64,000 nucleotides of DNA. Origin: Enterococcus viikkiensis (lineage in GTDB: Bacteria > Bacillota > Bacilli > Lactobacillales > Enterococcaceae). Below, piece after piece: positions 10,690-28,469 of the stretch; the first letter of the stretch is position 1, and each line of letters opens with the position of its first letter. The translations under genes were made by a program, and so were the position numbers. The notes below the pieces were generated by a model. The model worked only from the letters and a program-made list of their open reading frames with translations. It did no database searches and had not been told where the DNA came from. Where the stretch lies: positions 124,001 to 188,000 of the forward strand of contig NZ_BJDW01000003.1 in NCBI RefSeq assembly GCF_005405345.1, given 5' to 3'.

Positions 10690-11049
10690 GCCCTTATCGG
10701 CGAACTTTTCATTCGGATCAAGGTTTGGCTTATCAAATAAAAGTATATGGTCAAGTGTTGAAGCAACATAAAATTTTTCAAAGCTGTCTCAAAAAGGAAA
10801 TGATTTAGATAATTCGCCTATGGAAAACTTTTTTAGCCTTCTAAAACAAGAAATTTATCATAGCTTTAATGAACTTAAGATGGCAATTAATCAGTATATC
10901 TACTATTACAATAACGGATGAAAAAGAAACTGAACTGGCGTTCAATTGGGAACGGCCTATCAAACAGCGGCTTAATACTTATTTTAATATATAAAAAAAA
11001 AGAGTGGATTTCTTCCCTTTAAATGTCTAACTTTTTTGGGATTAATACA
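10690..11049 (+). pseudogene. decayed IS3/IS150-type transposase 3' end and right terminal repeat
   Basis: Reading frames broken by shifts and stops spell the C-terminal half of an IS3-family OrfB. HSDQGLAYQ starts at 10710, and after a frameshift come KGNDLDNSPMENFFSLLKQE and AINQYIYYYNN. Two shifts and several stops show it is dead. Its tail (about 10940-11049), down to GTCTAACTTTTTTGGGATTAATACA, matches the fragment at 17875-17986. A further stretch TTGGGGTTAGACTTTTT right after it resembles an opposite IS end. Confidence 0.85.
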
Positions 11050-11227: not shown

Positions 11228-11256
11228 TTGCCTATGTAAACGGTGATAGCTATATT
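11228..11256 (+). promoter_or_regulatory. promoter of the ascorbate-type PTS operon
   Basis: A -35 box TTGCCT (11228-11233) and a -10 box TATATT (11251-11256) are 17 bp apart. Transcription would start near 11263, 35 bases before the first ATG. A GAGGTGAT ribosome binding site follows. Confidence 0.75.
11235..11248 (+). promoter_or_regulatory. cre-like box inside the promoter
   Basis: TGTAAACGGTGATA fits the CcpA consensus TGWAANCGNTNWCA with one mismatch. It fills the spacer between the -35 and -10 boxes. A bound CcpA would block RNA polymerase, so catabolite repression is expected. Confidence 0.6.
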
Positions 11257-11297: not shown

Positions 11298-11768
11298 ATG
11301 TTAAGTAAAGTAATTAAGGAAGATTATATTCAATTAGATGTAGAAGCAAATGATTTTCCTGATGCTATTAGTCAAGCGTTAGAACCACTTGTCGAAGATG
11401 ATGCCGCTACGCAAGAATATGTAGATGCGGTTATAAAAATCTATCAAGAAACTGGACCATACATTGTGATTACTAAAAATGTGGCCTTACCCCACGCTCC
11501 CGTATCAGAAGGAGCGAAAAAAGTGGCGATTGGTTTTACCCGGTTGAAAAACGCCATTGTTTCAGGTCATGAATGTAACGACCCAGTAAAATATTTATTT
11601 CCATTAAGTGCTAAAGATAGTCAGTCCCATATTGAATTACTATCGGAATTGGCGGATTTGCTAGGCGATCCCGTCTTTATCGAATTTTTAGAAAATGTTT
11701 CATCAAAAGAAGAATTTATTAATTATTTAAAAAAATATGAAGGAGCTCAAAAAAATGAAAAATCATAA
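11298..11768 (+). CDS. PTS EIIA component (ascorbate/fructose type)
   Basis: A 156-residue cytosolic phosphocarrier that passes phosphate from HPr to EIIB. The active His is H66 in the motif NVALPHAPV, the pattern of the mannitol/fructose/ascorbate EIIA fold. It is the first gene of the operon, directly after the promoter. It overlaps the EIIB gene by 14 bases, which points to coupled translation. Codon use is visibly AT-rich compared with the genes to its left. Confidence 0.9.
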   Translation: MLSKVIKEDYIQLDVEANDFPDAISQALEPLVEDDAATQEYVDAVIKIYQETGPYIVITKNVALPHAPVSEGAKKVAIGFTRLKNAIVSGHECNDPVKYLFPLSAKDSQSHIELLSELADLLGDPVFIEFLENVSSKEEFINYLKKYEGAQKNEKS

Positions 11769-12051
11769 AGCATTAGTCGCATGTCGTGCCGGAGTCGGAT
11801 CAAGTTTAATGTTAAAAATCAAGGTTAACGAAGTCGTAAAAGAAAATAATTATCCTTTAGAAGTTGAACATTCTTCTTTAGATGGTGTCCCAGGATTTAC
11901 TGGCGATATGTTGATCACTTTACCAGATGTAGCCGAAGAATTAATTGAGAAAAAAGTTCCTTATAAGGTGGTAGCCGTTCGCAACGTTGTCGATAAAAAG
12001 GAGATCAAAGAAAAATTAGAAGAAGCTTTTGCCGAACTTGAAGGTGAATAG
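11755..12051 (+). CDS. PTS EIIB component (ascorbate type)
   Basis: A 98-residue EIIB that takes phosphate on Cys10 in the loop ACRAGVGSS and hands it to the incoming sugar. I start it at the ATG at 11755, preceded by GAAGGAG at a good distance. Starting at 11737 would place the start before that site. Size and motif fit the UlaB/SgaB group. The stop is 25 bases before the EIIC gene. Confidence 0.9.
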   Translation: MKNHKALVACRAGVGSSLMLKIKVNEVVKENNYPLEVEHSSLDGVPGFTGDMLITLPDVAEELIEKKVPYKVVAVRNVVDKKEIKEKLEEAFAELEGE

Positions 12052-12076
12052 CCAGTATTAAGGGGGAAAACAAAAA

Positions 12077-13339
12077 ATGGATTTTATTATTAGTTTTTTG
12101 AGTACACCTGCGGTTCTTTTGGGTGCAGTAGCCATGATCGGGCTACTCGCTCAAAAGAAAAGCAGTACCGAGGTAATGACTGGAACATTTAAAACAGTTA
12201 TCGGTTTCTTGATCTTTAGTGCAGGTGGCACGATCATGACCGGTGCACTACAAAATTTCAACTCATTATTCCAAACAGGGTTTCATATCGTTGGAGTTGT
12301 CGCTTCACCCGAAGCTGCAACAGCCTTAGCTCAAACTAAATTTGCTTTTGTAACAAGTTGTACGTTGATTTTAGGTTTTATCATGAACTTAGTTATTGCT
12401 CGCGTAACACCTTTCAAAAACATTTTCTTCACTACCGGGCATAGTTTATTCTTTGCTTGTGTATTGTCACTAATTTTGAAAGCACATCATTTTGCAAATG
12501 TTCCCGCAATTATTATCGGTGGTGTTTTGCTAGGTTTCTTCTCAGCCGCTTTACCACAACTTTGTCAGCCATTTATGCGTCAAATCACAGGTAGTGATTC
12601 CACAGCCATTGGTCACTTTAATATGGTTGGTTATGCTTTATCAGGTTATATCGGAAAATTATTTGGTAAATATAAAGACCGGACAACTGAAGATATTAAT
12701 TTTCCCAAATGGTTATCATTCTTTCGTGATTTCTTAATGGGTGTAGCCGTTGTTATGCTATTTTTGTTCTACGTTTCCGCATTAAAAGCTGGTCCAGTAG
12801 CAACGCAAAAATTAGCTGGTAGCGTTCACTGGTTAGTTTTCCCATTTGTTCAAGCCTTTACTTTTACAGCTGGTATTTCAATCTTAATGACTGGTGTTCG
12901 AATGTTCTTAGCTGAAATTACAGCAGCCTTTGTTTCAATTTCAGAAAAATTCATTCCAAATTCTCGTCCCGCTTTAGATGTTCCAACGGTCTTCCCTTTT
13001 GCTCCAACAGCCGTTATCGTCGGTTTTATTTCTTCTTACGCAGCTGGTCTATTAGGTGTTGTTATTATGGTTGCCTTGCATGCGCCAGTTGTCATCATTC
13101 CGGCAGCCCATATTTGTTTCTTCTCAGGTGGTACCGCAGGGGTCTTTGGTAATTCAACTGGTGGTTGGCGTGGTGCAGTGGTTGGTTCCTTTGTAGCTGG
13201 CTTACTATTAGCTTTCTTACCGATGGTTCTTTATCCATTATACGGCACACTAGGTATTGAAGGCTCAACCTTCCCGAATATTGATTACAATGTAATGGGT
13301 ATTCTATTAAACAAAATCCTTAATCTCTTTGGGATGTAA
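12077..13339 (+). CDS. PTS EIIC permease, UlaA/SgaT family
   Basis: A 420-residue membrane permease with about 10-11 hydrophobic segments, the length and layout of UlaA (L-ascorbate) permeases. It moves its sugar into the cell while EIIB phosphorylates it. UlaA relatives carry ascorbate and some unassigned acidic or pentose-like substrates. The rest of the operon lacks the UlaG lactonase and the Ula epimerases, so ascorbate itself is unlikely. AGGGGG precedes the ATG. Confidence 0.9.
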   Translation: MDFIISFLSTPAVLLGAVAMIGLLAQKKSSTEVMTGTFKTVIGFLIFSAGGTIMTGALQNFNSLFQTGFHIVGVVASPEAATALAQTKFAFVTSCTLILGFIMNLVIARVTPFKNIFFTTGHSLFFACVLSLILKAHHFANVPAIIIGGVLLGFFSAALPQLCQPFMRQITGSDSTAIGHFNMVGYALSGYIGKLFGKYKDRTTEDINFPKWLSFFRDFLMGVAVVMLFLFYVSALKAGPVATQKLAGSVHWLVFPFVQAFTFTAGISILMTGVRMFLAEITAAFVSISEKFIPNSRPALDVPTVFPFAPTAVIVGFISSYAAGLLGVVIMVALHAPVVIIPAAHICFFSGGTAGVFGNSTGGWRGAVVGSFVAGLLLAFLPMVLYPLYGTLGIEGSTFPNIDYNVMGILLNKILNLFGM

Positions 13340-13372
13340 TAGTCACCACTATCCATTAACTGAGAAACGCTT

Positions 13373-13425
13373 AAGCTGGGAAATCCAAAAATTGACTGAA
13401 AAATTTTTGTGGTAGCTCAGCTTTT
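13373..13425 (+). promoter_or_regulatory. stem-loop between EIIC and the SIS gene
   Basis: AAGCTG (13373-13378) pairs with CAGCTT (13418-13423), with a second small stem inside, and is followed by TTTT. It may partly terminate or stabilise the upstream PTS mRNA, setting a lower level for the enzymes downstream. Confidence 0.45.
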
Positions 13426-13473
13426 TATGCTTATAAAAATAAAAGCCGAAGTTTTTAGAAAGAAGGAACTATT

Positions 13474-14085
13474 TTGAGTACAGAAAAATTAGATCATTAT
13501 ATTGCAACTGTAGAACGAGAAATCTTGTCCTTTACAAAGTGCATTGATAAGGATGCCTTGCAAAAGGCAAATAAAATTATTCAAACAAGTAAAAAAAATC
13601 ATGGCCGGGTGCATATTACCGGTGTAGGCAAACCAAGTCACGTAGCCGAATATATTGCCGCATTAAACTCTTCTATCGGTACCCCAACTTATTTTTTAGA
13701 TACAACGGAAGCCGTTCATGGATCAGCAGGACAAGTGCAACCAGAAGATGTCGTGATCGCCATCTCAAATTCAGGTCAAACCGAAGAATTAAAACGAACG
13801 GTTCTAGCCTTGCAAAAAATCGGTGTAAAATTAATTGGGGTCAGTGGGGGCAATGATTCTTGGCTACATGAACATGTGGATGCCTTTTTATTTGCAGGCG
13901 TCAAAGCAGAAGGAGACGATTTAAACAAACCACCGCGAAATTCTATCTTAGCTGAAACAATTATTTTACAATGTTTATCAGTCTTGCTTCAAGAAGAACA
14001 GCAATTAGGATTAGATGAATATTTCTTATGGCATCCAGGTGGTGCTTTAGGTCAATCCATTCGCGATTTGAAGGAGGAAGCATGA
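13474..14085 (+). CDS. SIS-domain sugar-phosphate isomerase, KpsF/GutQ-like
   Basis: The 203-residue protein is a single SIS domain. It has GVGKPSHVAEYIAA near residue 50, SNSGQTEELK near 104 and the C-terminal HPGGALGQSI motif that marks arabinose-5-phosphate isomerases (KpsF/GutQ/KdsD). It lacks the two CBS domains of KdsD. It probably interconverts an aldose and a ketose phosphate made by the PTS. The start is TTG with AAGGAA upstream. Its stop overlaps the next gene (ATGA). Confidence 0.85.
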   Translation: MSTEKLDHYIATVEREILSFTKCIDKDALQKANKIIQTSKKNHGRVHITGVGKPSHVAEYIAALNSSIGTPTYFLDTTEAVHGSAGQVQPEDVVIAISNSGQTEELKRTVLALQKIGVKLIGVSGGNDSWLHEHVDAFLFAGVKAEGDDLNKPPRNSILAETIILQCLSVLLQEEQQLGLDEYFLWHPGGALGQSIRDLKEEA

Positions 14086-14990
14086 TGAAAATTAAAGGAA
14101 TTGTAACGGCTATGGTAACACCTTTACAAGCAGACAACTGTGGCATTGATGAACAAAAAACTCGTCAGTTAGTCGAACATTTAATTACAAATGGTGTGGC
14201 GGGCTTGTTTGTTTTAGGGACAAACGGTGAATTTTATGCTTTATCAACAGAAGAAAAAATAGCCTTAGCCAAAACTGTCGTTGAACAAGCAGCTGGTCGC
14301 GTGCCAGTTTTTGCAGGAGCCGGTGGTATATCAACCCAAGCCGTCAGTGATTTAGCTAATGAATTTGCCAAAGTCGGTGTAGATGCCGTCTCAATCATTA
14401 CGCCTTTTCTAATCAAAATTAGCGATCGAGAATTAATCAATCATTATCAAGAAATTTCTGAAAAAACCCAATTACCAATTATTTTATATAATATTCCAAG
14501 CAATACAGGCATCAATATTAGTGAGGCGGCCTTTAAAGAATTAGTGAAAAATCCAAAAATTATTGGGATTAAAGACAGTAGTGGGGATGTCGAAAATATT
14601 AAGATGTATATCGAAAATAGTCGACAGCGAGCAGATTTTTCGGTGCTAGTTGGTTCAGATTCTAAAATATTAACTGCTTTAAACTTAGGCGCTGATGGGG
14701 CAGTTGCAGCCACGTCTAATGTTTTAACTAAAACAGATGTTGCAATTTATGATTTATATCAGTCTGGAGATTTAGCTGGAGCTCAAGTTTTACAAACAAG
14801 TATTGATGAATTTCGTCGGGTGTTAAAATTTGCCACTGTTCCCGCTGTTTTAAAATATTCCTGTGGTTTAATTGGGTATCCTGTGGGAAAAACTAAATTA
14901 CCAGTATTACCGGTAAAAGAAAAATATGTGGCCGAAATTAAAGAAGTCCTAACAACTTATGGGACCATCGAAGGATTTGAGGTACAATAA
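14085..14990 (+). CDS. DapA/NanA-family class I lyase
   Basis: A 301-residue TIM barrel of the dihydrodipicolinate synthase / N-acetylneuraminate lyase superfamily. Visible active-site parts are GTNGE (45-49), Tyr135 in YNIPSNTG and the Schiff-base Lys163 in GIKDSSGD. Members cleave or dehydrate 2-keto acids. The context (sugar PTS, isomerase, second aldolase) argues against lysine synthesis. AAGGAGGA lies before two adjacent ATGs at 14082 and 14085. I take the second for better spacing. The gene overlaps the SIS stop codon. Confidence 0.85.
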   Translation: MKIKGIVTAMVTPLQADNCGIDEQKTRQLVEHLITNGVAGLFVLGTNGEFYALSTEEKIALAKTVVEQAAGRVPVFAGAGGISTQAVSDLANEFAKVGVDAVSIITPFLIKISDRELINHYQEISEKTQLPIILYNIPSNTGINISEAAFKELVKNPKIIGIKDSSGDVENIKMYIENSRQRADFSVLVGSDSKILTALNLGADGAVAATSNVLTKTDVAIYDLYQSGDLAGAQVLQTSIDEFRRVLKFATVPAVLKYSCGLIGYPVGKTKLPVLPVKEKYVAEIKEVLTTYGTIEGFEVQ

Positions 14991-14991
14991 A

Positions 14992-15621
14992 ATGAAAAAA
15001 TTAAGAGTTTTATCGCGCATTGAAAAAGAAAAATTAATGGCTATTATTCGAGTTGAAACAATTGATCGTGCCAAAGAAATTGTTGATAGTTGTTTAGCCG
15101 GAAAGATTTCTTGTTTGGAAATTAGTTATACGAACGACAATGCCGGAGAAATAATCGAACAATTAAAAACGATTTATGCAGATCAAATTTTAATTGGCGC
15201 TGGAACAGTTTTAGATAGCGAAACAGCAAGACTGGCTATTTTAAATGGGGCAGAGTTTATTATCGCGCCTAATTTTCAATTGAGCGTGGCTAAAGTTTGT
15301 CATCGTTACCAAGTTCCTTATATGCCTGGGTGTACAAGTATGACAGAAATCATTACCGCTTTGGAAGCTGGTTCAGATATGATTAAAGCTTTTCCAACCT
15401 CTTCTATTGTAGGACCAAAGATTATTTCAACTATTAAAACGCCGATGCCTCACGTACCAGTTTTATCCTCTGGTGGGGTTACTTTAGACAATGTTACTAA
15501 CTGGTTACAAGCTGGAGTGGATTGTATGGGTGTTGGTACGCTACTTTCAAAGGGCAGTCAAGCCGAAATAGCTGAGCATGCTCAAACTTTGCGTAAACAA
15601 GTGGATGCTTTTATGAATTAA
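14992..15621 (+). CDS. KDPG/KHG-type aldolase
   Basis: A 209-residue class I aldolase that splits a 2-keto-3-deoxy sugar acid phosphate into pyruvate and an aldehyde. Glu43 in CLEISY, the GAGTVL loop (69-74), PGCTSMTE and the Schiff-base Lys132 in MIKAFP are all present. The Ser in EIS, where EIT is usual, is a small change. It starts one base after the previous stop. Two pyruvate-forming lyases side by side, with no dehydratase in the operon, make the pathway unusual. Confidence 0.88.
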   Translation: MKKLRVLSRIEKEKLMAIIRVETIDRAKEIVDSCLAGKISCLEISYTNDNAGEIIEQLKTIYADQILIGAGTVLDSETARLAILNGAEFIIAPNFQLSVAKVCHRYQVPYMPGCTSMTEIITALEAGSDMIKAFPTSSIVGPKIISTIKTPMPHVPVLSSGGVTLDNVTNWLQAGVDCMGVGTLLSKGSQAEIAEHAQTLRKQVDAFMN

Positions 15622-15646
15622 ATTCGAGATGGGAGGAAAACAACCA

Positions 15647-17740
15647 ATGGCTTCAATTGATCAACGAACATTCCAATTAATTGAAAAAATGATTGAACGA
15701 CCCTTTAATACGGCTCAACATTTGATGAAACAACTTTCTTTGTCCAAGTCCCAAGTGGAATACGCTGTATCTAAAGCTAACGTTTTGTTACAAGAAGCTG
15801 GAAAAACTCCCATCGAAATCGGCTTAAATAATTTTATTTTAGCCGAGTCAAGTCGTAACTATTTCTTAGATTTTTTGTCTAAAGAAGATGTTTTTTCCGT
15901 CTATGAATTAAGCGGAGAAGAACGCAAAAAATATATTTTTTTGATGACCCTTTATTATCATGAAGAATATTTATCGATTAATCATTTTCTCGATGCTTTG
16001 CAAGTTGGGAAAACAACTTTAATCAGCGATATGAAAAAACTAGAAGAAGAACTGCAACGATTGCATATTGAGATCTCTTATTCCCGAAAAGAAGGCTATC
16101 GCTTACAAGGAGACGAGGCCGAAATTCGTTACTATTTAATGCGAATTATTTTCGAAGATTTCAGTAAAAACAACGCGCATTTTTTATATGATTACTTTTT
16201 ATATCGGGAAAGTACCGTGGATAAAAAAAGGATTTTTGCAGTTGTTGAAAGCGAATTAAATCATTATCACATTAATATAGTCGAAAATCGCATGAATGAA
16301 TTTTGTTATATGCTAGTTTTTTTACTACCCCGTTTGAATAAAACCTGGGCTGAATTTTATCAAAATTACAGTTTTCAAACTTTTTTCGAAACCAAAGAAT
16401 ATCAATTTTCAACCTCTTTATTAGCCCAATTTCAGATTGAAAATAAATATGCTAAGCTTTATGTTTGTGGTTGGATGTTGGGTATGGCCATGGGGGATGC
16501 AAAACAAAACTCCCCAGATTATTCGATTATTGATGAGCTAGTTGACCGAATTTTTGAGCGGTTTGAATTATTGTCAGGTATTCGTTTTAAAGATGAACGT
16601 GCTGCAAAACAACAACTATACAGCCATTTTCGGCCGGTTTATTATCGTTTATTTTTCCATTTGCCGATTGTTAATGTTTTACACAAAAAAATTGTGCAAG
16701 AATTTCCTGATATGTATCAAATTGTCCAAGAGACGATGAAGCCTATTGAAGTTCTATTTGGCACCGAAATTCCTAATGAAGAAGTTTCATTTTTAACCTT
16801 ACATTTTGCCTCTTTGATTGATGAATATGACGAATATCAAGTTCAGCAAAAAATTGGGGTTATTGTTTGCCCCAACGGTATTGGTAGTTCAGCAATTGTT
16901 TATAACGAGTTGAAAAGTGTTTTTCCTGAGATGATTTTAATTGGTCCCATGGAAACCAATGCGCTGGAAACAATTAGTCAAAGCTATGATATGGTTTTTA
17001 CCACCGTTCCCAATATTCGTTTATATGCTTTGAAAAAGCCTGTTTTTGTCGTCAATCCAATTATGTCCATTGATGAAAAATATCGACTGGTTCAAGCTGT
17101 TCAAAACGAGGGCAATCCTCAGTATGAAGATTATCGTGTAGAAGATTTACTCGCCATTATCAAAAAACATGGGACGATAACGGAAGTGTCAGCTTTAAAA
17201 AAAGAATTGAACGATTATTTACAAGGTCGCAATAATAAGTCGCATAAGCATGCTTCTAAAGTCGTTAATAGAAATAAACAAGCTGAATTTAATTTATTAG
17301 ATATTTTGAAACCGGAGTTTATTCAATTGCAAATTTCTTCTCGCAGTTGGGAAGAAGCCTTGTATGTAGCGGCCGCCCCTTTAGTGGATGCCGGAGTTAT
17401 TACTAGACATTATATTGAAAAAATCATTCAAACAACTCGTAATGAAGGTCCTTATATGGTGATTACCGAAAAAGTAGCCTTACCCCACGCCCGTCCTGAA
17501 GACGGTACGCTAAAAGTTGGATTAGGCATTACAGCTTTAAAAGACGAAGTTGTAATTTTAGGCAAGACACCGGTCAAATATATCTTTACCTTATCAGCTG
17601 TGGATAATAAAAAACATTTGTCTGCCATAGCAGAATTAGTTTCTTTTCTGGATAGACCCGAATTTTTCACGTTGTTGGATCAAGCAGAAGATCCTCAAGA
17701 AGTCTATGCCTGGGTTGAACAACATATTGAATCCGATTGA
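15647..17740 (+). CDS. PRD-containing transcriptional regulator with EIIB and EIIA domains
   Basis: The 697-residue BglG/MtlR-type activator or antiterminator has N-terminal helix-turn-helix domains, two PTS regulation domains (about 180-390), an EIIB-like domain with Cys408 in IVCPNG, and a C-terminal EIIA domain with His614 in KVALPHARP. Phosphorylation by PTS proteins should switch it with substrate supply. The start is the ATG at 15647 after GGGAGGAAA. As last gene of the operon it probably controls its own promoter at 11228. Confidence 0.9.
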   Translation: MASIDQRTFQLIEKMIERPFNTAQHLMKQLSLSKSQVEYAVSKANVLLQEAGKTPIEIGLNNFILAESSRNYFLDFLSKEDVFSVYELSGEERKKYIFLMTLYYHEEYLSINHFLDALQVGKTTLISDMKKLEEELQRLHIEISYSRKEGYRLQGDEAEIRYYLMRIIFEDFSKNNAHFLYDYFLYRESTVDKKRIFAVVESELNHYHINIVENRMNEFCYMLVFLLPRLNKTWAEFYQNYSFQTFFETKEYQFSTSLLAQFQIENKYAKLYVCGWMLGMAMGDAKQNSPDYSIIDELVDRIFERFELLSGIRFKDERAAKQQLYSHFRPVYYRLFFHLPIVNVLHKKIVQEFPDMYQIVQETMKPIEVLFGTEIPNEEVSFLTLHFASLIDEYDEYQVQQKIGVIVCPNGIGSSAIVYNELKSVFPEMILIGPMETNALETISQSYDMVFTTVPNIRLYALKKPVFVVNPIMSIDEKYRLVQAVQNEGNPQYEDYRVEDLLAIIKKHGTITEVSALKKELNDYLQGRNNKSHKHASKVVNRNKQAEFNLLDILKPEFIQLQISSRSWEEALYVAAAPLVDAGVITRHYIEKIIQTTRNEGPYMVITEKVALPHARPEDGTLKVGLGITALKDEVVILGKTPVKYIFTLSAVDNKKHLSAIAELVSFLDRPEFFTLLDQAEDPQEVYAWVEQHIESD

Positions 17741-23134: not shown

Positions 23135-24193
23135 TTAAAATTCTCCTGGATTCGACTCAATCATGACTTTGATCTCGTTGCCTTCCATCACTTTATCAAA
23201 TGCTGTCCGCCATTCTTCCAACGGATATTTTTTGGTAATCATCTCATCGATATTAATCGCACCTTTAGCCAGTAAATGAATCGCAATCGGCCAATCGTAC
23301 GGATTTTGTGAGCGGCTACCAATGTATTGAATCTCACGTTGAATGATCGATTCCGTGTCAAGATCCACCATTTTGTTAGCAAAAAGTCCGACTTGTACGA
23401 ATTGCCCTTGCTTCCGAATCAACGGCAAGCTGGCATTCACTGCCGGCACGGCACCCGAGGCATCATACACTTTATCAACGCCATAGCCATCGGTTACTTC
23501 GTTGACCACCGCCGCTAAATCTTCTTTCATTGTATCCACAATAATATCCGCACCGAGTTTCTTCGCCAATTCCAAACGATGGGCATCTTTTGTGATCCCA
23601 GTCATAATAACGAAAGCGCCGATTTCCTTAGCGATTTGCAGTAAGAACAAGCCGATTGGTCCAGGTCCCATAATAATGATCGTATCCCGTAATTCCAAGT
23701 GACTCTTCTGATACATTGCATGGACACAGCAAGCCAACGGTTCACTCATCGCTGCCCCTTCAAAACTTAGATGATCCGGTAAAATATGAATACTTTCTTC
23801 ACGAGCCAAGACGTAATTTGCCATACTACCATTTTGCTGTGTACCGATTCCTTTACGATAAGGACATAAATTGTATTGTTTTTCTTTGCAGTAATCACAT
23901 TTTCCACAGACATAAAAAGTTGTTTCGCTAGTTACCCGATCGCCTACTTTGACTTTTGTGACCTTTTCGCCAACGTCAACGACTTCACCAGAAAATTCAT
24001 GGCCTAGTACAACCGGCGTCGTTGGATTTTTGTATTCCCCTTTAAACGTATGGATGTCTGATCCACAGATCCCAGTGTACGCTACTTTGATTAATACTTT
24101 GTCGTCTACTGCCTCTGGTACTGGTAAGTCGATAAATGCCATTTGGTCATAACCGGGCGCTTGCTTCGAGACGCCCTTCATCATTTTACTCAT
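23135..24193 (-). CDS. zinc-dependent polyol (phosphate) dehydrogenase
   Basis: A 352-residue medium-chain dehydrogenase. Catalytic zinc ligands lie in GICGSD and GHE, structural zinc cysteines in CGKCDYCKEKQYNLC, and the NAD-binding motif is GPGPIGL at about residue 178. As last gene of a galactitol-type PTS operon it probably oxidises the imported polyol phosphate, such as galactitol 1-phosphate to tagatose 6-phosphate. No tagatose pathway kinase or aldolase is in the window, so sorbitol or another polyol is also possible. Confidence 0.85.
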   Translation of the reverse strand: MSKMMKGVSKQAPGYDQMAFIDLPVPEAVDDKVLIKVAYTGICGSDIHTFKGEYKNPTTPVVLGHEFSGEVVDVGEKVTKVKVGDRVTSETTFYVCGKCDYCKEKQYNLCPYRKGIGTQQNGSMANYVLAREESIHILPDHLSFEGAAMSEPLACCVHAMYQKSHLELRDTIIIMGPGPIGLFLLQIAKEIGAFVIMTGITKDAHRLELAKKLGADIIVDTMKEDLAAVVNEVTDGYGVDKVYDASGAVPAVNASLPLIRKQGQFVQVGLFANKMVDLDTESIIQREIQYIGSRSQNPYDWPIAIHLLAKGAINIDEMITKKYPLEEWRTAFDKVMEGNEIKVMIESNPGEF

Positions 24194-24206
24194 TTCAATA
24201 AGCCCC

Positions 24207-25475
24207 CTACATTACTTGTGCTACTAATTCTGAGAATTTCAAGAAGATCCATTTTAAGAAGTTTCCGCCGGTATCTAAGTTAGTGATTTCAGCGGCACCA
24301 TCTGGGAATTTGACGATTCCTTGAGCCATTTCCGTAATAACTGGTGCAAAGTTTGTTGCCATCAATAACGCCGCAGCCATAACGACAGTCAATGAAATAA
24401 CTGAGTGCAAAATATTTCCCTTACGACTTGGTACCACCAACGCTGCGAAGAATGGGATCGTTGCTAAGTCACCAAAAGGCAAGACACGGTTTCCTGGTAA
24501 AATAACCGCTAAGAATAAAGTGATCGGTACCATCAAAAGACCGGTTGATAACGCCGCAGGAGACCCTGTTGCTAACGCGGCATCCATTCCTAGATAGATT
24601 TCGCGATCGCCGTAACGGCTTTGTAGTAGTTTTTGTGCTCCCTCTTGAATTGGAATTAAGCCTTCCATCAAGATTTTAACCATCCGTGGCATCAAGAACA
24701 TCACACCACCCATGTTCATTCCGATTTGTAAAATCCCAATCAAATCGTAGCCACCTAACAAGCCTAAGAACATCCCGATGATAATCCCCATGATCATTGG
24801 CTCGCCAAAAATACCAAAACGTTTTTGAATCGTTTCTGGTTTTACATCTAATTTATTAATTCCAGGAATTTTATCTACCAACCAACCTACTGGTAACGCT
24901 AGAACAGCGTATCCTTGCGCCGATCCGGTTGTGATACTAATTCCTTCTAAGCCATAATATTCTTGAACTTTTGGAGCGGTTTTGTCAGCGATAATTTGGA
25001 TAATAATCGTAAACAAAATCCCACACAAGATGCCAAAGAAAAAACTTTTTGTTACAATATAACCAGTTGCTGCTACAGAACTAACATGCCAGTAGTTCCA
25101 GATATCGATATTTAATGTTTTGGTCCGGTTTAGCGCCAACATAATTAAATTCACGATTAAAATCACTGGAATCATCACAGCCGCGATTGGTTGCGCCCAA
25201 GTCCCGGCTGAGACTGCTGGCCAGCCAGCATCAATGATCGTTAGATTCAATCCGAATCGTTCAACCATCGCTTGCGCTGCAGGACCAACGTTTGTAGTCA
25301 AGACCGTAATGACCAGGTTAATCCCGATCATCCCGATACCTACTGTTATCCCTGAAATAATTGCTTTTTTAATTGGCACTCTAAAAATAAGACCAACGAT
25401 AAAGATAATGATCGGCAACATAACACTGGGTCCGGCACCTAAAATACTCTGTACCACATCCATTAAACCATCCAT
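24207..25475 (-). CDS. gatC-like: PTS EIIC permease, galactitol family
   Basis: A 422-residue membrane permease with about ten hydrophobic segments and the GatC-type region QEGAQKLLQSRYG. It transports and helps phosphorylate the polyol. AGGAGG is 8 bases before the ATG. The gene is 14 bases upstream of the dehydrogenase gene. The 91-base gap to EIIB holds a strong hairpin. Confidence 0.87.
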   Translation of the reverse strand: MDGLMDVVQSILGAGPSVMLPIIIFIVGLIFRVPIKKAIISGITVGIGMIGINLVITVLTTNVGPAAQAMVERFGLNLTIIDAGWPAVSAGTWAQPIAAVMIPVILIVNLIMLALNRTKTLNIDIWNYWHVSSVAATGYIVTKSFFFGILCGILFTIIIQIIADKTAPKVQEYYGLEGISITTGSAQGYAVLALPVGWLVDKIPGINKLDVKPETIQKRFGIFGEPMIMGIIIGMFLGLLGGYDLIGILQIGMNMGGVMFLMPRMVKILMEGLIPIQEGAQKLLQSRYGDREIYLGMDAALATGSPAALSTGLLMVPITLFLAVILPGNRVLPFGDLATIPFFAALVVPSRKGNILHSVISLTVVMAAALLMATNFAPVITEMAQGIVKFPDGAAEITNLDTGGNFLKWIFLKFSELVAQVM

Positions 25476-25528
25476 ACATATTTCCTCCTATGCTATAAAT
25501 TAATTTTTTAAACCCCTGTTTTAACGGT

Positions 25529-25559
25529 GCAATTTCCCACGTTAGACGTGGGAAACTGC
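25529..25559. promoter_or_regulatory. strong hairpin between EIIB and EIIC genes
   Basis: TTTCCCACG (25533-25541), loop TTAGA, CGTGGGAAA (25547-25555), with three more outer pairs. No T run follows, so it is not a plain terminator. It may be an mRNA processing or stabilising element, or the end of an IS200/IS605-like repeat. Confidence 0.6.
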
Positions 25560-25566
25560 TCATTTA

Positions 25567-25854
25567 TTAAATAGCTTTTGCGGCTTCAATAATTTGTGCT
25601 TCCACTTTATCCGCTCCGATTCCAGTTAAAAATGCCATTGCTTTAATCGCTGGAATCTTGTATTCCGTTGGTAGCATTGTTGTTGAAATCAACATATCCG
25701 CGTCATCTTGTTTCGAAGCCGCTTCAGAAATTTTAATTTGCGTAATTTCTACTGGCATTTGATTTCTAGCAAATAAATCCTCGACTTTTTTCATTACGAC
25801 TGTTGATGTTGCGATTCCTGCTCCACAAGCTACTAATACGCGAATTTTTTTCAT
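25567..25854 (-). CDS. gatB-like: PTS EIIB component, galactitol type
   Basis: A 95-residue cytosolic EIIB with the phospho-cysteine Cys10 in VACGAGIATS, as in GatB. It lies 60 bases after EIIA and before EIIC in the same operon. Length is typical. Confidence 0.88.
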   Translation of the reverse strand: MKKIRVLVACGAGIATSTVVMKKVEDLFARNQMPVEITQIKISEAASKQDDADMLISTTMLPTEYKIPAIKAMAFLTGIGADKVEAQIIEAAKAI

Positions 25855-25914
25855 GATAACTATCCCCTTTTTCTTTTTAATATATTTATTTTCTTCCAGC
25901 TAAAAAGCTGATTT

Positions 25915-26388
25915 CTATAACTGATTTTTTTCGATGATCGTGATTAATTCATTTTCCGTTGTTGCTAATAAAAGCTCTGATAAAACGGCTTCATTTTGTA
26001 AGAGTCCCATCAAAGATTGCAGCATCTCCAGTTGCGCATGGGGTTGGTTTAGTCCTAAGACAAAGACAATCTGTGCTTTGACTTGTTGATTATTATCTTC
26101 CATGCTGTAAAAACTCACTGGATCTTGCAAGGTAATCACTGCTACGAATTCTTCTAAGATGCACTCAGCATCTGTATGGGGAATCGCCGCCCCAAAATTT
26201 ACTAATTGAATTCCGGTTGGAAAAGTCTCTTCTCGTTTTTTAATTCGTTCTAAAAAGTCTTCCCTCACCCAACCAAGATCGGAAGCTTTGGCAGCAATCT
26301 GCTCAAATAGCTCGTCTCGGGAAGAAAAATTTTCTTGTGTGAAAACCAACGGCGCCTTTACATACGAACTTAGTGTCGCTTCTCCCAT
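25915..26388 (-). CDS. gatA-like: PTS EIIA component, galactitol type
   Basis: The 157-residue EIIA has the phospho-histidine His71 in GAAIPHTDAE. GGAGGG precedes two consecutive ATGs at 26391 and 26388. I take the second because of spacing. The first would overlap the regulator stop as ATGA. Coupling to the regulator gene is therefore close. Confidence 0.85.
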   Translation of the reverse strand: MGEATLSSYVKAPLVFTQENFSSRDELFEQIAAKASDLGWVREDFLERIKKREETFPTGIQLVNFGAAIPHTDAECILEEFVAVITLQDPVSFYSMEDNNQQVKAQIVFVLGLNQPHAQLEMLQSLMGLLQNEAVLSELLLATTENELITIIEKNQL

Positions 26389-28469
26389 CATTTTGCCCTC
26401 CAATAGTCATCGTTGAATATTTCCAACGCTTTACGAATATCTTCTTTTGTTTTTGCTTCTTCCATAGCTACCAACTGGTCTTCCCCTGCCAGGCTCATCA
26501 TTTCAAAAATCAAATCTAAATGTTCCTCTTTATCATTCGAACCTAGCAAGATGACCGTATGAATTTTTCCACCATCTTCAGTTGGTATACCTTTTTTTAC
26601 AATGCCTAAACTGATTCCGACACCGATTGCTCCCGCTTCTGATACCGTATGAGGCAAGGCAATTTTATTTCTTAAAACCGTATATGGCGGCAATGTCGGC
26701 ATTTCTTTTTTCAGTGCTTGGATATAATCCTCTGTAATGATTTGCTGGCGTTCCAATGGTTTAGCCAACGCATCTAAGACGTCGCTCCAGCTGATGGCCT
26801 CTTCAAAAATTTGAATTGTTTCTCCTTTTAACAGGTCAATCAAATGCGGCCGTTTCTTTTCTAAAATTTTCGACTCTTTCGGTGCGAATAAATTCAATAG
26901 TTCTTCGTAAAAACTTGCTTCATCAATAATCTCAGCATGCTTCTTTACCACCGCTAAAATCTTTTCTGGCGTCACAATCTCGGATTGGACAATTGCGGTA
27001 GAACGCAGGACCCGCTCTCTTAATTGGCGCTTTTCTTGCTCAGATAAGAAGTTATTAACGACAAAGACTTTTTTCTCTGTCTTTAGTGGTACTGCCGAAA
27101 AAATAAATTCCGTTTCATGCTCTGTACGATAAAATTCCCGCGCTGACATGGTTGCGACAAAATCAATTTCCGGCAATAGATTTTTCAACGTATTCTCCAG
27201 CAAGACCGCAATTGAGATACCATTCGGACACACGATAATTGCCCGTTTACGATTTTCCGGATGAATAATCTCACTGCTTTCTACGATATGACTACCAATA
27301 AACAAAGAAATGAAAAACAATTCGGTATCCGGAATCGGTTGCTCAAAAAATCGTTCCAATGGACCACTAGCTTCTTTCACTAGATAAAAGAGTGAAAAAA
27401 GATTGGCATCTTTGTTCTCCTGATAAAACTTCGTTTGTAGATTCAAATGATACTTGATCCGATAGTAGGCCGGCCGCATATGAACCAGCAGACGATCTAA
27501 CAGTTTTTCTTTGTCTTCCAAACTTACACCGGCGATTTTTTCAAAATTAGCAATGACGTCTTCCAGTGCTTCCTTCATTTTATTGATTTCTTTAACGGAA
27601 AGGATATCGCCTCGCGACAAGTTCGTTGTCAGCAACAGCATTGTTAAGTAGACTCGCTCATTTTCACTTAAGCCATCGACATCCCAAATCACGCGATCCG
27701 CTGCCAAATATTCCTTCGTGTCGGTTAGTTCGCGATAATTGATCTTAAAGCTGTAAGAAATCAACTTTCCTCGCTGTGCCCGTCGAATCATTAGAATAAT
27801 CAACAAGGGCAGTGTCCTTAAGCGTTCATCTGTAAACTGAACCTCCAGTTCTTCCTCAACCAGTTCTACCCGTTTGTTAAAACTCTGAATCTGCTGGACG
27901 TCTATGTTGGCAAACTGAATAATCATCTGAATTCCATTATAGGTCGTCGCTAAGTTGTTCAATAAATCCGACAGTAGATTGCGTTTATTCCACTCATCTC
28001 CACGAATGAAATACCCCTTCTGACGGGTGTACTTTAAATCCAGCTCATAGGATTGAAGTGTTTGCGTTACTTCTTTTAAATCTCGCAAGACCGTGTTGCG
28101 ACTAACTTTCAATTTATCAATAAAATGATTCAACGATAGATAATCTTCTTTACTCAGTAACATTAGTTGAATCAAAGCCACGCGTTCTTTACTTGAAAAG
28201 ACATAATCCTCGGTCGTCTCTCCTAGCGCTTCATCACCACCCTTATAAATCGAAAGAATGTCACTCGTAATGACAAAATGACCATTTTTCGTTCGTTTAA
28301 TCTCACTCAGCTTCTCATCCAACAATGAATCATTGATTTTCTTCAAGGCGTAATTTAATTGGCCTCGTGTTAAATCAAATTTCTTACATAACAGCTTACT
28401 AGTAATCTGGGGGTTGTTGATTAGCTCAACAAAAATTTGATTGGTTCGTTCTTCTAAATTCATTGTCAT
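26388..28469 (-). CDS. PRD-containing regulator of the polyol PTS operon
   Basis: A 693-residue BglG/MtlR-type regulator with N-terminal helix-turn-helix domains (about 1-140), two PRDs (about 180-395), an EIIB-like domain with Cys in IVCPNGISIAVL, and a C-terminal EIIA domain with His607 in KIALPHTVS. It is the same architecture as the regulator at 15647 and should likewise respond to PTS phosphorylation. It is first in its operon, so it controls its own expression too. Direct repeats upstream may be its target. Confidence 0.9.
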   Translation of the reverse strand: MTMNLEERTNQIFVELINNPQITSKLLCKKFDLTRGQLNYALKKINDSLLDEKLSEIKRTKNGHFVITSDILSIYKGGDEALGETTEDYVFSSKERVALIQLMLLSKEDYLSLNHFIDKLKVSRNTVLRDLKEVTQTLQSYELDLKYTRQKGYFIRGDEWNKRNLLSDLLNNLATTYNGIQMIIQFANIDVQQIQSFNKRVELVEEELEVQFTDERLRTLPLLIILMIRRAQRGKLISYSFKINYRELTDTKEYLAADRVIWDVDGLSENERVYLTMLLLTTNLSRGDILSVKEINKMKEALEDVIANFEKIAGVSLEDKEKLLDRLLVHMRPAYYRIKYHLNLQTKFYQENKDANLFSLFYLVKEASGPLERFFEQPIPDTELFFISLFIGSHIVESSEIIHPENRKRAIIVCPNGISIAVLLENTLKNLLPEIDFVATMSAREFYRTEHETEFIFSAVPLKTEKKVFVVNNFLSEQEKRQLRERVLRSTAIVQSEIVTPEKILAVVKKHAEIIDEASFYEELLNLFAPKESKILEKKRPHLIDLLKGETIQIFEEAISWSDVLDALAKPLERQQIITEDYIQALKKEMPTLPPYTVLRNKIALPHTVSEAGAIGVGISLGIVKKGIPTEDGGKIHTVILLGSNDKEEHLDLIFEMMSLAGEDQLVAMEEAKTKEDIRKALEIFNDDYWRAK

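Follow-up and report, generated by a model that had tools for sequence, protein, structure and literature searches.

Several described bacterial systems share components with the operon considered here. The ula operon of Escherichia coli, which serves L-ascorbate use, joins EIIA, EIIB and EIIC components of the phosphotransferase system (PTS) with the lactonase UlaG, the decarboxylase UlaD and the epimerases UlaE and UlaF. In Gram-negative bacteria, KdsD, KdsA and KdsC make the eight-carbon acid 3-deoxy-D-manno-octulosonic acid (Kdo). E. coli CFT073 carries a single-domain KpsF/GutQ-type isomerase beside PTS and PRD genes, and the arabinose-5-phosphate isomerases of this strain and of Clostridium tetani have reportedly been studied earlier. 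The DapA superfamily of Schiff-base lyases includes E. coli NanA and YagE, the latter a 2-keto-3-deoxygluconate (KDG) aldolase, and the D-glucosaminate (dga) operon combines a PTS with an aldolase of the 2-keto-3-deoxy-6-phosphogluconate (KDPG) family. In this study, an operon at positions 11298-17740 of a 64,000-nucleotide stretch of Enterococcus viikkiensis (contig NZ_BJDW01000003.1, positions 124,001 to 188,000 of the forward strand; hereafter the window) was compared with these systems and with related clusters in other genomes. We propose, with a probability of about 0.45, that it encodes the PTS-coupled catabolism of a 3-deoxy-2-ulosonic acid, most simply Kdo.

An initial annotation, made from the sequence of the window, had described the locus as an undescribed sugar pathway with its own regulator. 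The gene set that it listed was confirmed by open reading frames (ORFs) together with Pfam and NCBIfam models:

11298..11768, forward strand: PTS EIIA (PTS_EIIA_2); ORF, PF00359 at 1.3e-30
11755..12051, forward strand: PTS EIIB (PTS_IIB); PF02302 at 3.5e-13, nearest NCBIfam model ascorbate EIIBC, below its cut-off
12077..13339, forward strand: PTS EIIC of the UlaA/GAT family; PF03611 at 4.4e-113
13474..14085, forward strand: predicted SIS-domain isomerase of the KpsF/KdsD type without CBS domains, NKPPR subclass, TTG start; PF01380 at 5e-13
14082..14990, forward strand: predicted Schiff-base lyase of the DapA/N-acetylneuraminate lyase (NAL) superfamily, with Asn at position 45 and Leu/Phe at position 107 of dihydrodipicolinate synthase (DHDPS); PF00701 at 2.1e-76
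14992..15621, forward strand: enzyme of the KDPG/2-keto-4-hydroxyglutarate (KHG) aldolase family, catalytic Glu and Lys kept; PF01081 at 9.6e-36
15647..17740, forward strand: PRD-containing regulator with a Mga-type helix-turn-helix (HTH) and a C-terminal EIIA domain; Pfam domains

The EIIA and EIIB genes overlap, as do those of the SIS and DapA-type proteins (14082-14085); a single base separates the DapA-type and aldolase genes, and 25 bases separate the latter from the likely start of the regulator, whose ORF opens at 15629 and whose likely initiation codon is the ATG at 15647, preceded by GGGAGG.

The operon shares the EIIA, EIIB and EIIC families with ula, and its EIIC exceeds the cut-offs of both the general EIIC model NF009553 (587.6 versus 423 bits) and the ascorbate-EIIC model NF006919 (448.2 versus 380 bits). 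However, this EIIC is only 28% identical to E. coli UlaA, and UlaG, UlaD, UlaE/UlaF or another epimerase, and a dehydratase were all absent from the ORFs of at least 70 amino acids between 8500 and 21000, a region in which Pfam was run on the operon's seven proteins and on seven flanking ORFs, the small overlapping ORFs being inspected by eye only. The claim of the initial annotation that the lactonase, the epimerases and a dehydratase are missing thus stands for the proteins scanned, and ascorbate use was rejected because the Ula enzymes are absent from the operon and the scanned flanking proteins. The SIS protein belongs to the KdsD family and retains its catalytic residues, and arabinose-5-phosphate and Kdo-8-phosphate are predicted intermediates as in Kdo biosynthesis, whereas the direction proposed here is catabolic and the SIS protein is a single domain. 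With the CFT073 operon the locus shares a single-domain SIS protein beside PTS and PRD genes, although the neighbors in CFT073 resemble phosphoglycerate dehydrogenase and MalY/PatB and include no pyruvate aldolase. NanA and YagE have the active-site Tyr and Lys in common with the window DapA-type enzyme, to which they are 30% and 31% identical and which differs from them in Asn45 and in Leu at position 107 (Leu or Phe in its subclass). What appears to be a dga operon, presumed so from gene order, lies elsewhere in the genome (L189); it likewise has a PTS and a KDPG-family aldolase, but its PTS is of the mannose family, its other enzymes differ, and it has neither a free-standing SIS protein nor a DapA-type lyase. 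The markers that we take to define the Dga pathway, the ammonia-lyase DgaE together with a mannose-family PTS, were not found in the window operon by ORF list and Pfam.

In the proposed pathway, EIIA, EIIB and EIIC would take up the acid with phosphorylation at its terminal hydroxyl, turning Kdo into Kdo-8-phosphate. The DapA-type lyase, aided or duplicated by the KDPG-type aldolase, would then act through a Schiff base to give pyruvate and D-arabinose-5-phosphate, and the SIS protein would convert the latter to ribulose-5-phosphate for the pentose phosphate pathway. The net result would be the reverse of Kdo-8-phosphate biosynthesis, with a pyruvate lyase replacing KdsA. Kdo appears the simplest substrate because only cleavage of an eight-carbon acid calls for an arabinose-5-phosphate isomerase, and Kdo is the common natural acid with that number of carbons. 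The sequence of PTS, pyruvate lyase and pentose-phosphate isomerase, with the eight-carbon acid that it implies, seems rather probable. Substrate, step order and regulation are deduced here from gene content, co-occurrence, catalytic residues and natural exchanges of the isomerase and aldolase. Chemical precedent comes from several papers: NanA and human NPL cleave KDO, which occurs in Gram-negative lipopolysaccharide and plant cell walls (PMC13220900), D-arabinose and pyruvate are joined to KDO by the NALs of both E. coli and Lactobacillus antri (PMC4016182), and PMC4412817 cites a KDO aldolase. A transporter, a pyruvate-lyase-type enzyme and a KdsD-type isomerase, as Kdo catabolism would call for, are encoded together in the window and in the related clusters. 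Neither a published pathway with this gene set nor a Gram-positive pathway of Kdo catabolism turned up in the literature searched, which may miss older or closed-access papers; in this respect the initial annotation holds.

The initial annotation had suggested a search for co-occurrence of the gene families, and its reading withstood this search. Among 105 genomes of the Enterococcaceae, relatives of the DapA-type enzyme at E<=1e-60 were found in 32 genomes at 40 places, and loci were built around the best place in 30 of these genomes (G049 and the places G018:C3, G011:C2:230724 and G093:C4 were left out of this count). A cluster of the window type surrounds the best relative in 26 of the 30, with the order EIIC-SIS-DapA-aldolase-PRD kept in 22; the deviants are L012 and L013 without the aldolase, L014 with EIIC elsewhere and L015 with a different SIS protein behind the regulator. 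The remaining four loci (L029-L032) hold a mannose-family PTS operon with the same three enzymes. Outside the 30 loci, G018 carries a cluster of the window type whose DapA gene contains a stop. A scan of genome contigs with the DapA protein gave two loci, in Enterococcus devriesei and E. xiangfangensis, the same as G004 and G020. Many species share the gene order although their DapA proteins are only 42-71% identical to that of the window, which argues that the cluster is more than chance.

A search from the permease side gave the same picture. EIIC matches at E<=1e-110 occur in 62 of 395 genomes of the Lactobacillales, and the set analyzed comprised 27 full-length homologues with at least 65% identity, a truncated copy of 89% identity in G022 being excluded (its contig piece, L141, holds EIIA, EIIB and part of EIIC and no SIS, DapA or aldolase). 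A KdsD/KpsF-type SIS gene lies near 25 of the 27, a DapA-type gene near 25 and the aldolase near 24. The exceptions are G058, where EIIC is about 15 kb away; G383, with the aldolase only; G370, without the aldolase; and G380, whose contig ends behind DapA. Of the 25 SIS proteins, 18 are nearest to the window class and seven are canonical, but the split is rather 17 and eight since the window-class protein of G219 sits in an adjacent mannose-PTS operon and the Ula cluster of this genome carries a canonical SIS. EIIC matches below 65% were only sampled: G116 (51%) has all three enzymes, G283:C51 (51%) an SIS piece only before the contig end, and G413 (47%) none. By eye, a full-length transketolase-like gene follows EIIC of about 47% identity in G413, G275, G097 and G382 (L135-L138); these apparently belong to a different PTS pathway and serve as a contrast, not as a formal control. 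As a separate observation, EIIC and another EIIB lie several kilobases off, reversed and with transposases around, on the E. lactis plasmid pSU-B46 (L128:7113-18151) and in G058 (L038/L140).

The order of the reactions is best judged from clusters in which an enzyme has been exchanged. A canonical KdsD-type SIS protein replaces the window class in nine Ula-type clusters (G057, G219, G143, G400, G297, G329, G380, G116 and G370); the seven scanned score 192-228 bits against the SIS part of the KdsD model, versus 102 for the window protein. That a canonical KdsD-type enzyme can stand in for the window class points to a pentose phosphate. The pyruvate-forming step is also exchanged. L036 and L037 have SIS and DapA, a permease of 47% identity and no KDPG-type aldolase in the cluster, while KDPG-type aldolases are encoded elsewhere in these genomes. 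In G1157 (L096), a PRD gene, EIIB and EIIC (50%) are accompanied by an HpaI-type aldolase in the place of DapA, an NKPPR-class SIS and, behind the latter, a broken remnant of a KDPG-type aldolase; the best NCBIfam models for the HpaI-type enzyme score 97.5 (HpaI), 96.6 (GarL) or less, below cut-off. Common to the clusters are a PTS and one or more pyruvate-aldolase-type enzymes, drawn from three families; a KdsD-like isomerase is shared by all but a few. Lysis to pyruvate and an aldose phosphate followed by isomerization would fit these shared features throughout, and is the simplest shared core because L036, L037 and L096 keep an SIS protein and a pyruvate aldolase.

The same enzymes recur with an unrelated PTS. 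The second operon (L200-L203) consists of the aldolase, EIIB, EIIC, EIID, a 2-hydroxyacid dehydrogenase, EIIA, DapA, a regulator with a PucR-type HTH, a second EIIB and SIS; its assignment to the mannose-family PTS comes from families tested on L083:

L200:3012-10267: mannose-PTS operon; whole copies also in L083, L090, L201, L202 and L203, reordered in L084

It is whole in six genomes, including G085 (L083; also L206) and G069 (L090). In L084 (G219) it is reordered and lacks the regulator and second EIIB, and partial forms occur in L039, L081, L085 and L143; for L084 and L090, the PTS genes and the dehydrogenase were identified by eye. The dehydrogenase scores highest with the models of phosphoglycerate dehydrogenase (238 bits) and of glyoxylate reductase (188 bits) but reaches neither cut-off; the regulator matches the CdaR model weakly, at 22 bits.

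A further group of DapA relatives is found without a PTS, including two genomes of the family (L204 and L205). There the gene lies with a DUF1537-type kinase, an iron alcohol dehydrogenase, PdxA, a YhcH/YjgK/YiaL-family protein, BNR_2 and a CitMHS carrier (families tested on L204, YhcH on L205 as well):

L204:4250-11833, L205:2664-10346 and L198:7995-15151: non-PTS DapA cluster; YhcH/NanQ-family, BNR_2 and CitMHS genes not all in each

PdxA exceeds its cut-off, while the DUF1537-type kinase falls short of that of its best model, D-threonate kinase (203.9 versus 450 bits), and the YhcH-family protein of that of NanQ (63.4 versus 160). In Caballeronia, DapA, an iron alcohol dehydrogenase, PdxA and a sialidase-family (BNR_2) protein occur together. 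From these families we infer that the L204-type cluster is a candidate pathway for an ulosonic diacid, for example 3-deoxy-D-lyxo-heptulosaric acid (DHA) of rhamnogalacturonan II, which would be lysed to pyruvate and a tetruronate, reduced to a threonate-type acid, phosphorylated and converted to dihydroxyacetone phosphate. The setting with YhcH/NanQ, BNR_2 and CitMHS suits ulosonic acids, and this reading would support an ulosonic acid as the substrate of the DapA subclass as a whole.

The DapA-type proteins of the two operons and this related group form one clade with a support of 0.96, in which the Niallia member of the related group is placed among the PTS-operon proteins with weak support. 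Asn45 and Leu or Phe107 are found in 27/27 of these proteins, with Tyr133 and the Schiff-base Lys kept. At the DHDPS residues that we take to be Arg138 and Tyr107 (E. coli numbering), the window enzyme has Asn and Leu; position 138 is variable in the clusters, being Asn in the window and Arg or Lys in some. A second DapA-family gene in the genome has the DHDPS residues at 6/6 positions inspected and is followed by a 251-amino-acid ORF, judged to be dapB by size and place only. The absence of Arg138 and Tyr107 and the presence of this second copy led us to reject a lysine-synthesis enzyme, even though the window protein passes the NCBIfam dapA model marginally (209.4 versus a cut-off of 206.15 bits); the dapA label from the family model thus shows itself to say little here.

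In the SIS protein, the presumed catalytic residues of KdsD, K59, H88, E111, E152 and H193 (KdsD numbering), are preserved in 16/16 aligned cluster proteins, that of the window included. In a tree, the NKPPR proteins are split from the canonical SIS proteins and KdsD with a support of 1.0. The nearest solved structure is 5uqi, which we take to be the KpsF/GutQ-type isomerase of E. coli CFT073 with the gene name c3406. A role in Kdo synthesis was rejected: among the 38 genomes that carry the cluster in some form, KdsA exceeds its cut-off in one (G956) and in none of the other 37, 31 of which have weaker matches, presumably 3-deoxy-D-arabino-heptulosonate-7-phosphate synthase. As for the KDPG-type aldolase, the window enzyme exceeds the PRK06552 cut-off (242.1 versus 238 bits), and the catalytic Glu45 and Schiff-base Lys133 are kept in 10/10 such enzymes. 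Elsewhere in the same genome (L188:7395-9207), another KDPG-type aldolase stands beside a 180-amino-acid SIS protein and a 211-amino-acid protein, by eye a pair resembling hexulose-phosphate synthase and isomerase.

Several observations speak against Kdo catabolism as proposed. The window SIS protein falls below the cut-offs of its best models, kpsF (103.8 versus 203.7 bits) and KdsD (101.8 versus 505), both of which extend past the SIS part that it matches, and the position of KdsD Thr161 is Arg in 9/9 NKPPR-class proteins including its own, whereas Thr is found in 7/7 canonical cluster proteins. The dapA cut-off is passed, position 138 is Arg in the DapA proteins of L080 and L086, and Tyr107, present in DHDPS, NanA and YagE, is lost throughout the subclass, whose mechanism may therefore be different. 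Most clusters have two aldolases, more than one substrate needs; these could serve six- and eight-carbon acids or two C4 epimers. The dehydrogenase of the mannose-PTS operon is superfluous in the scheme. Some clusters also fit poorly. The canonical SIS is divergent in three Lactobacillales genomes (G297, G329 and G380; L131, L132 and L207), and in G370 (L086), which has no KDPG-type aldolase in the operon, it is set apart by a LacI-type gene, has sugar kinase, RbsD and ABC genes as neighbors and may be outside the pathway. In G383 (L133), a permease of 68% identity is accompanied by a KDPG-type aldolase alone and a divergent PRD regulator, with no SIS or DapA nearby, and the SIS matches in this genome sit in frames of 250-618 amino acids, none near 200. 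In G956 (L095), where all genes of the set recur, DapA is read from a short frame of 243 amino acids and the aldolase groups with another type.

The arrangement in G383, whose aldolase keeps Glu45 and Lys133, lends itself to an alternative in which a six-carbon 2-keto-3-deoxy acid (2-keto-3-deoxygluconate or a stereoisomer) is imported and its 6-phosphate is split by the KDPG-type aldolase to pyruvate and glyceraldehyde-3-phosphate, leaving DapA and SIS for a side substrate; the named substrates of this aldolase family are indeed KDPG and KHG. However, L036 and L037 do without the cluster aldolase and L096 retains only its remnant, while both arrangements keep SIS and another pyruvate-aldolase-type enzyme, and SIS and DapA accompany nearly all EIIC homologues although a triose phosphate product needs no pentose-phosphate isomerase. 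We consider the six-carbon substrate rather unlikely. Distinctly unlikely is a nine-carbon or other ulosonic acid, such as 2-keto-3-deoxynononic acid (KDN) or sialic acid, cleaved to pyruvate and a hexose 6-phosphate with SIS as a hexose-phosphate isomerase. This would suit the departure of the SIS class from KdsD at position 161 and the membership of N-acetylneuraminate lyase in the DapA superfamily, whose NAL model PRK04147 the window enzyme matches at 183.2 bits (cut-off 281). The sugar-binding positions that we take to be Glu192 and Ser208 in NAL are nevertheless Ser and Ala in the window, where Lys165 of the Schiff base and Tyr137 are kept, and the canonical KdsD-type SIS proteins of other clusters point to a pentose phosphate.

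The scheme of the initial annotation, in which an aldose or sugar acid is phosphorylated, isomerized by SIS and dehydrated by the DapA-type enzyme before the KDPG-type aldolase frees pyruvate, has the merit of using each gene once, and some members of the DapA superfamily are dehydratases. Yet the window enzyme reaches only 110.5 bits against the dehydratase model KdgD (cut-off 374), and some clusters lack the KDPG-type aldolase or DapA. A DapA-type Schiff base needs a 2-keto acid, which the neutral ketose phosphate from an SIS enzyme does not offer. Thus, a distinct sugar-acid PTS pathway other than ascorbate use is supported, whereas the reaction order given in the initial annotation is probably wrong in view of L036, L037 and L096, and the scheme as a whole has a very small chance of being right. 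Least probable of all is a 3-hydroxylated 2-ulosonic acid, for example D-glycero-D-talo-oct-2-ulosonic acid (Ko), or its reduced form, as the substrate of at least the mannose-PTS operon. Cleavage would yield hydroxypyruvate, on which the dehydrogenase would act, and arabinose-5-phosphate, and the window operon would be a simpler relative. The added D-2-hydroxyacid dehydrogenase and PucR-type-HTH regulator of that operon would be accounted for; the window operon lacks the dehydrogenase, the CdaR match is weak, and nothing points to Ko directly. Catabolism of a 3-deoxy-2-ulosonic acid, most simply Kdo, remains our preferred reading.

The PRD/EIIA regulator would turn the operon on when the PTS substrate is available. 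Two further features were noted upstream:

11228..11256, forward strand: promoter-like hexamers TTGCCT-17-TATATT, weak
11235..11248, forward strand: catabolite-responsive element (cre)-like site with one mismatch to TGWAANCGNTNWCA, 63 bases 5' of the EIIA start; pattern match

A promoter scan of the region gave 24 such sites versus 24.5 expected from shuffles, and cre-like sites over the whole window show no excess either (6 versus 5.9 expected). Upstream of the clusters, however, a cre-like site with at most one mismatch occurs in 9/22 regions, the window's included (shuffles, mean 0.47, maximum 4; these preserved base composition only, and close relatives among the 22 regions are not independent). 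The motif suggests catabolite control of the operon. Rfam and tRNA scans gave zero matches.

The operon is flanked on the left by a nucleoside transporter and on the right by a convergent ribose-type operon (sugar transporter, RbsD, PfkB kinase and LacI regulator). By eye, a frame-broken remnant like the end of an IS3-type transposase lies directly upstream (10780-10990), and a second PTS set (EIIC of 422 amino acids, EIIB, EIIA and PRD regulator) with a zinc-type dehydrogenase, having the look of a galactitol-type operon, occupies 23135-28469.

The NKPPR class of SIS proteins is sharply delimited and patchily distributed. In a profile search of the 395 genomes of the order, its members score at least 271 bits and all other matches, some truncated, less than 150. 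It occurs in 21 of these genomes, and in 21/21 the DapA-type and KDPG-type aldolase genes adjoin at least one copy. In a class sample of 398 genomes it was found in the source genome and in none of the other 397, and among 398 genomes of the phylum in two further ones; the orders of G1157 (24 genomes) and G956 (131 genomes) held zero further members. No match was found among the phage records searched with the SIS protein. Eight plasmid records carry it, seven from Enterococcus (milk, fermented food, chicken and human) and one from Clostridioides difficile, and the gene set was confirmed in three of them. The patchy presence suggests horizontal transfer of the cluster.

Taken further, the clusters would represent an undescribed form of Kdo use in Gram-positive bacteria, with a PTS, a dedicated lyase for Kdo-8-phosphate from a new DapA subclass and a catabolic arabinose-5-phosphate isomerase. 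The module would have been joined to two PTS families unrelated to each other, and a relative of the lyase would serve a non-PTS DHA pathway; we put this broader proposal forward tentatively. If true, it would assign a role to the single-domain KpsF-type isomerases of bacteria that apparently do not make Kdo and would explain part of the DapA annotations that are unrelated to lysine, with enzymes that are directly testable. The presence of the cluster genes on enterococcal plasmids from milk, fermented food and people means that the pathway may be a selectable trait.

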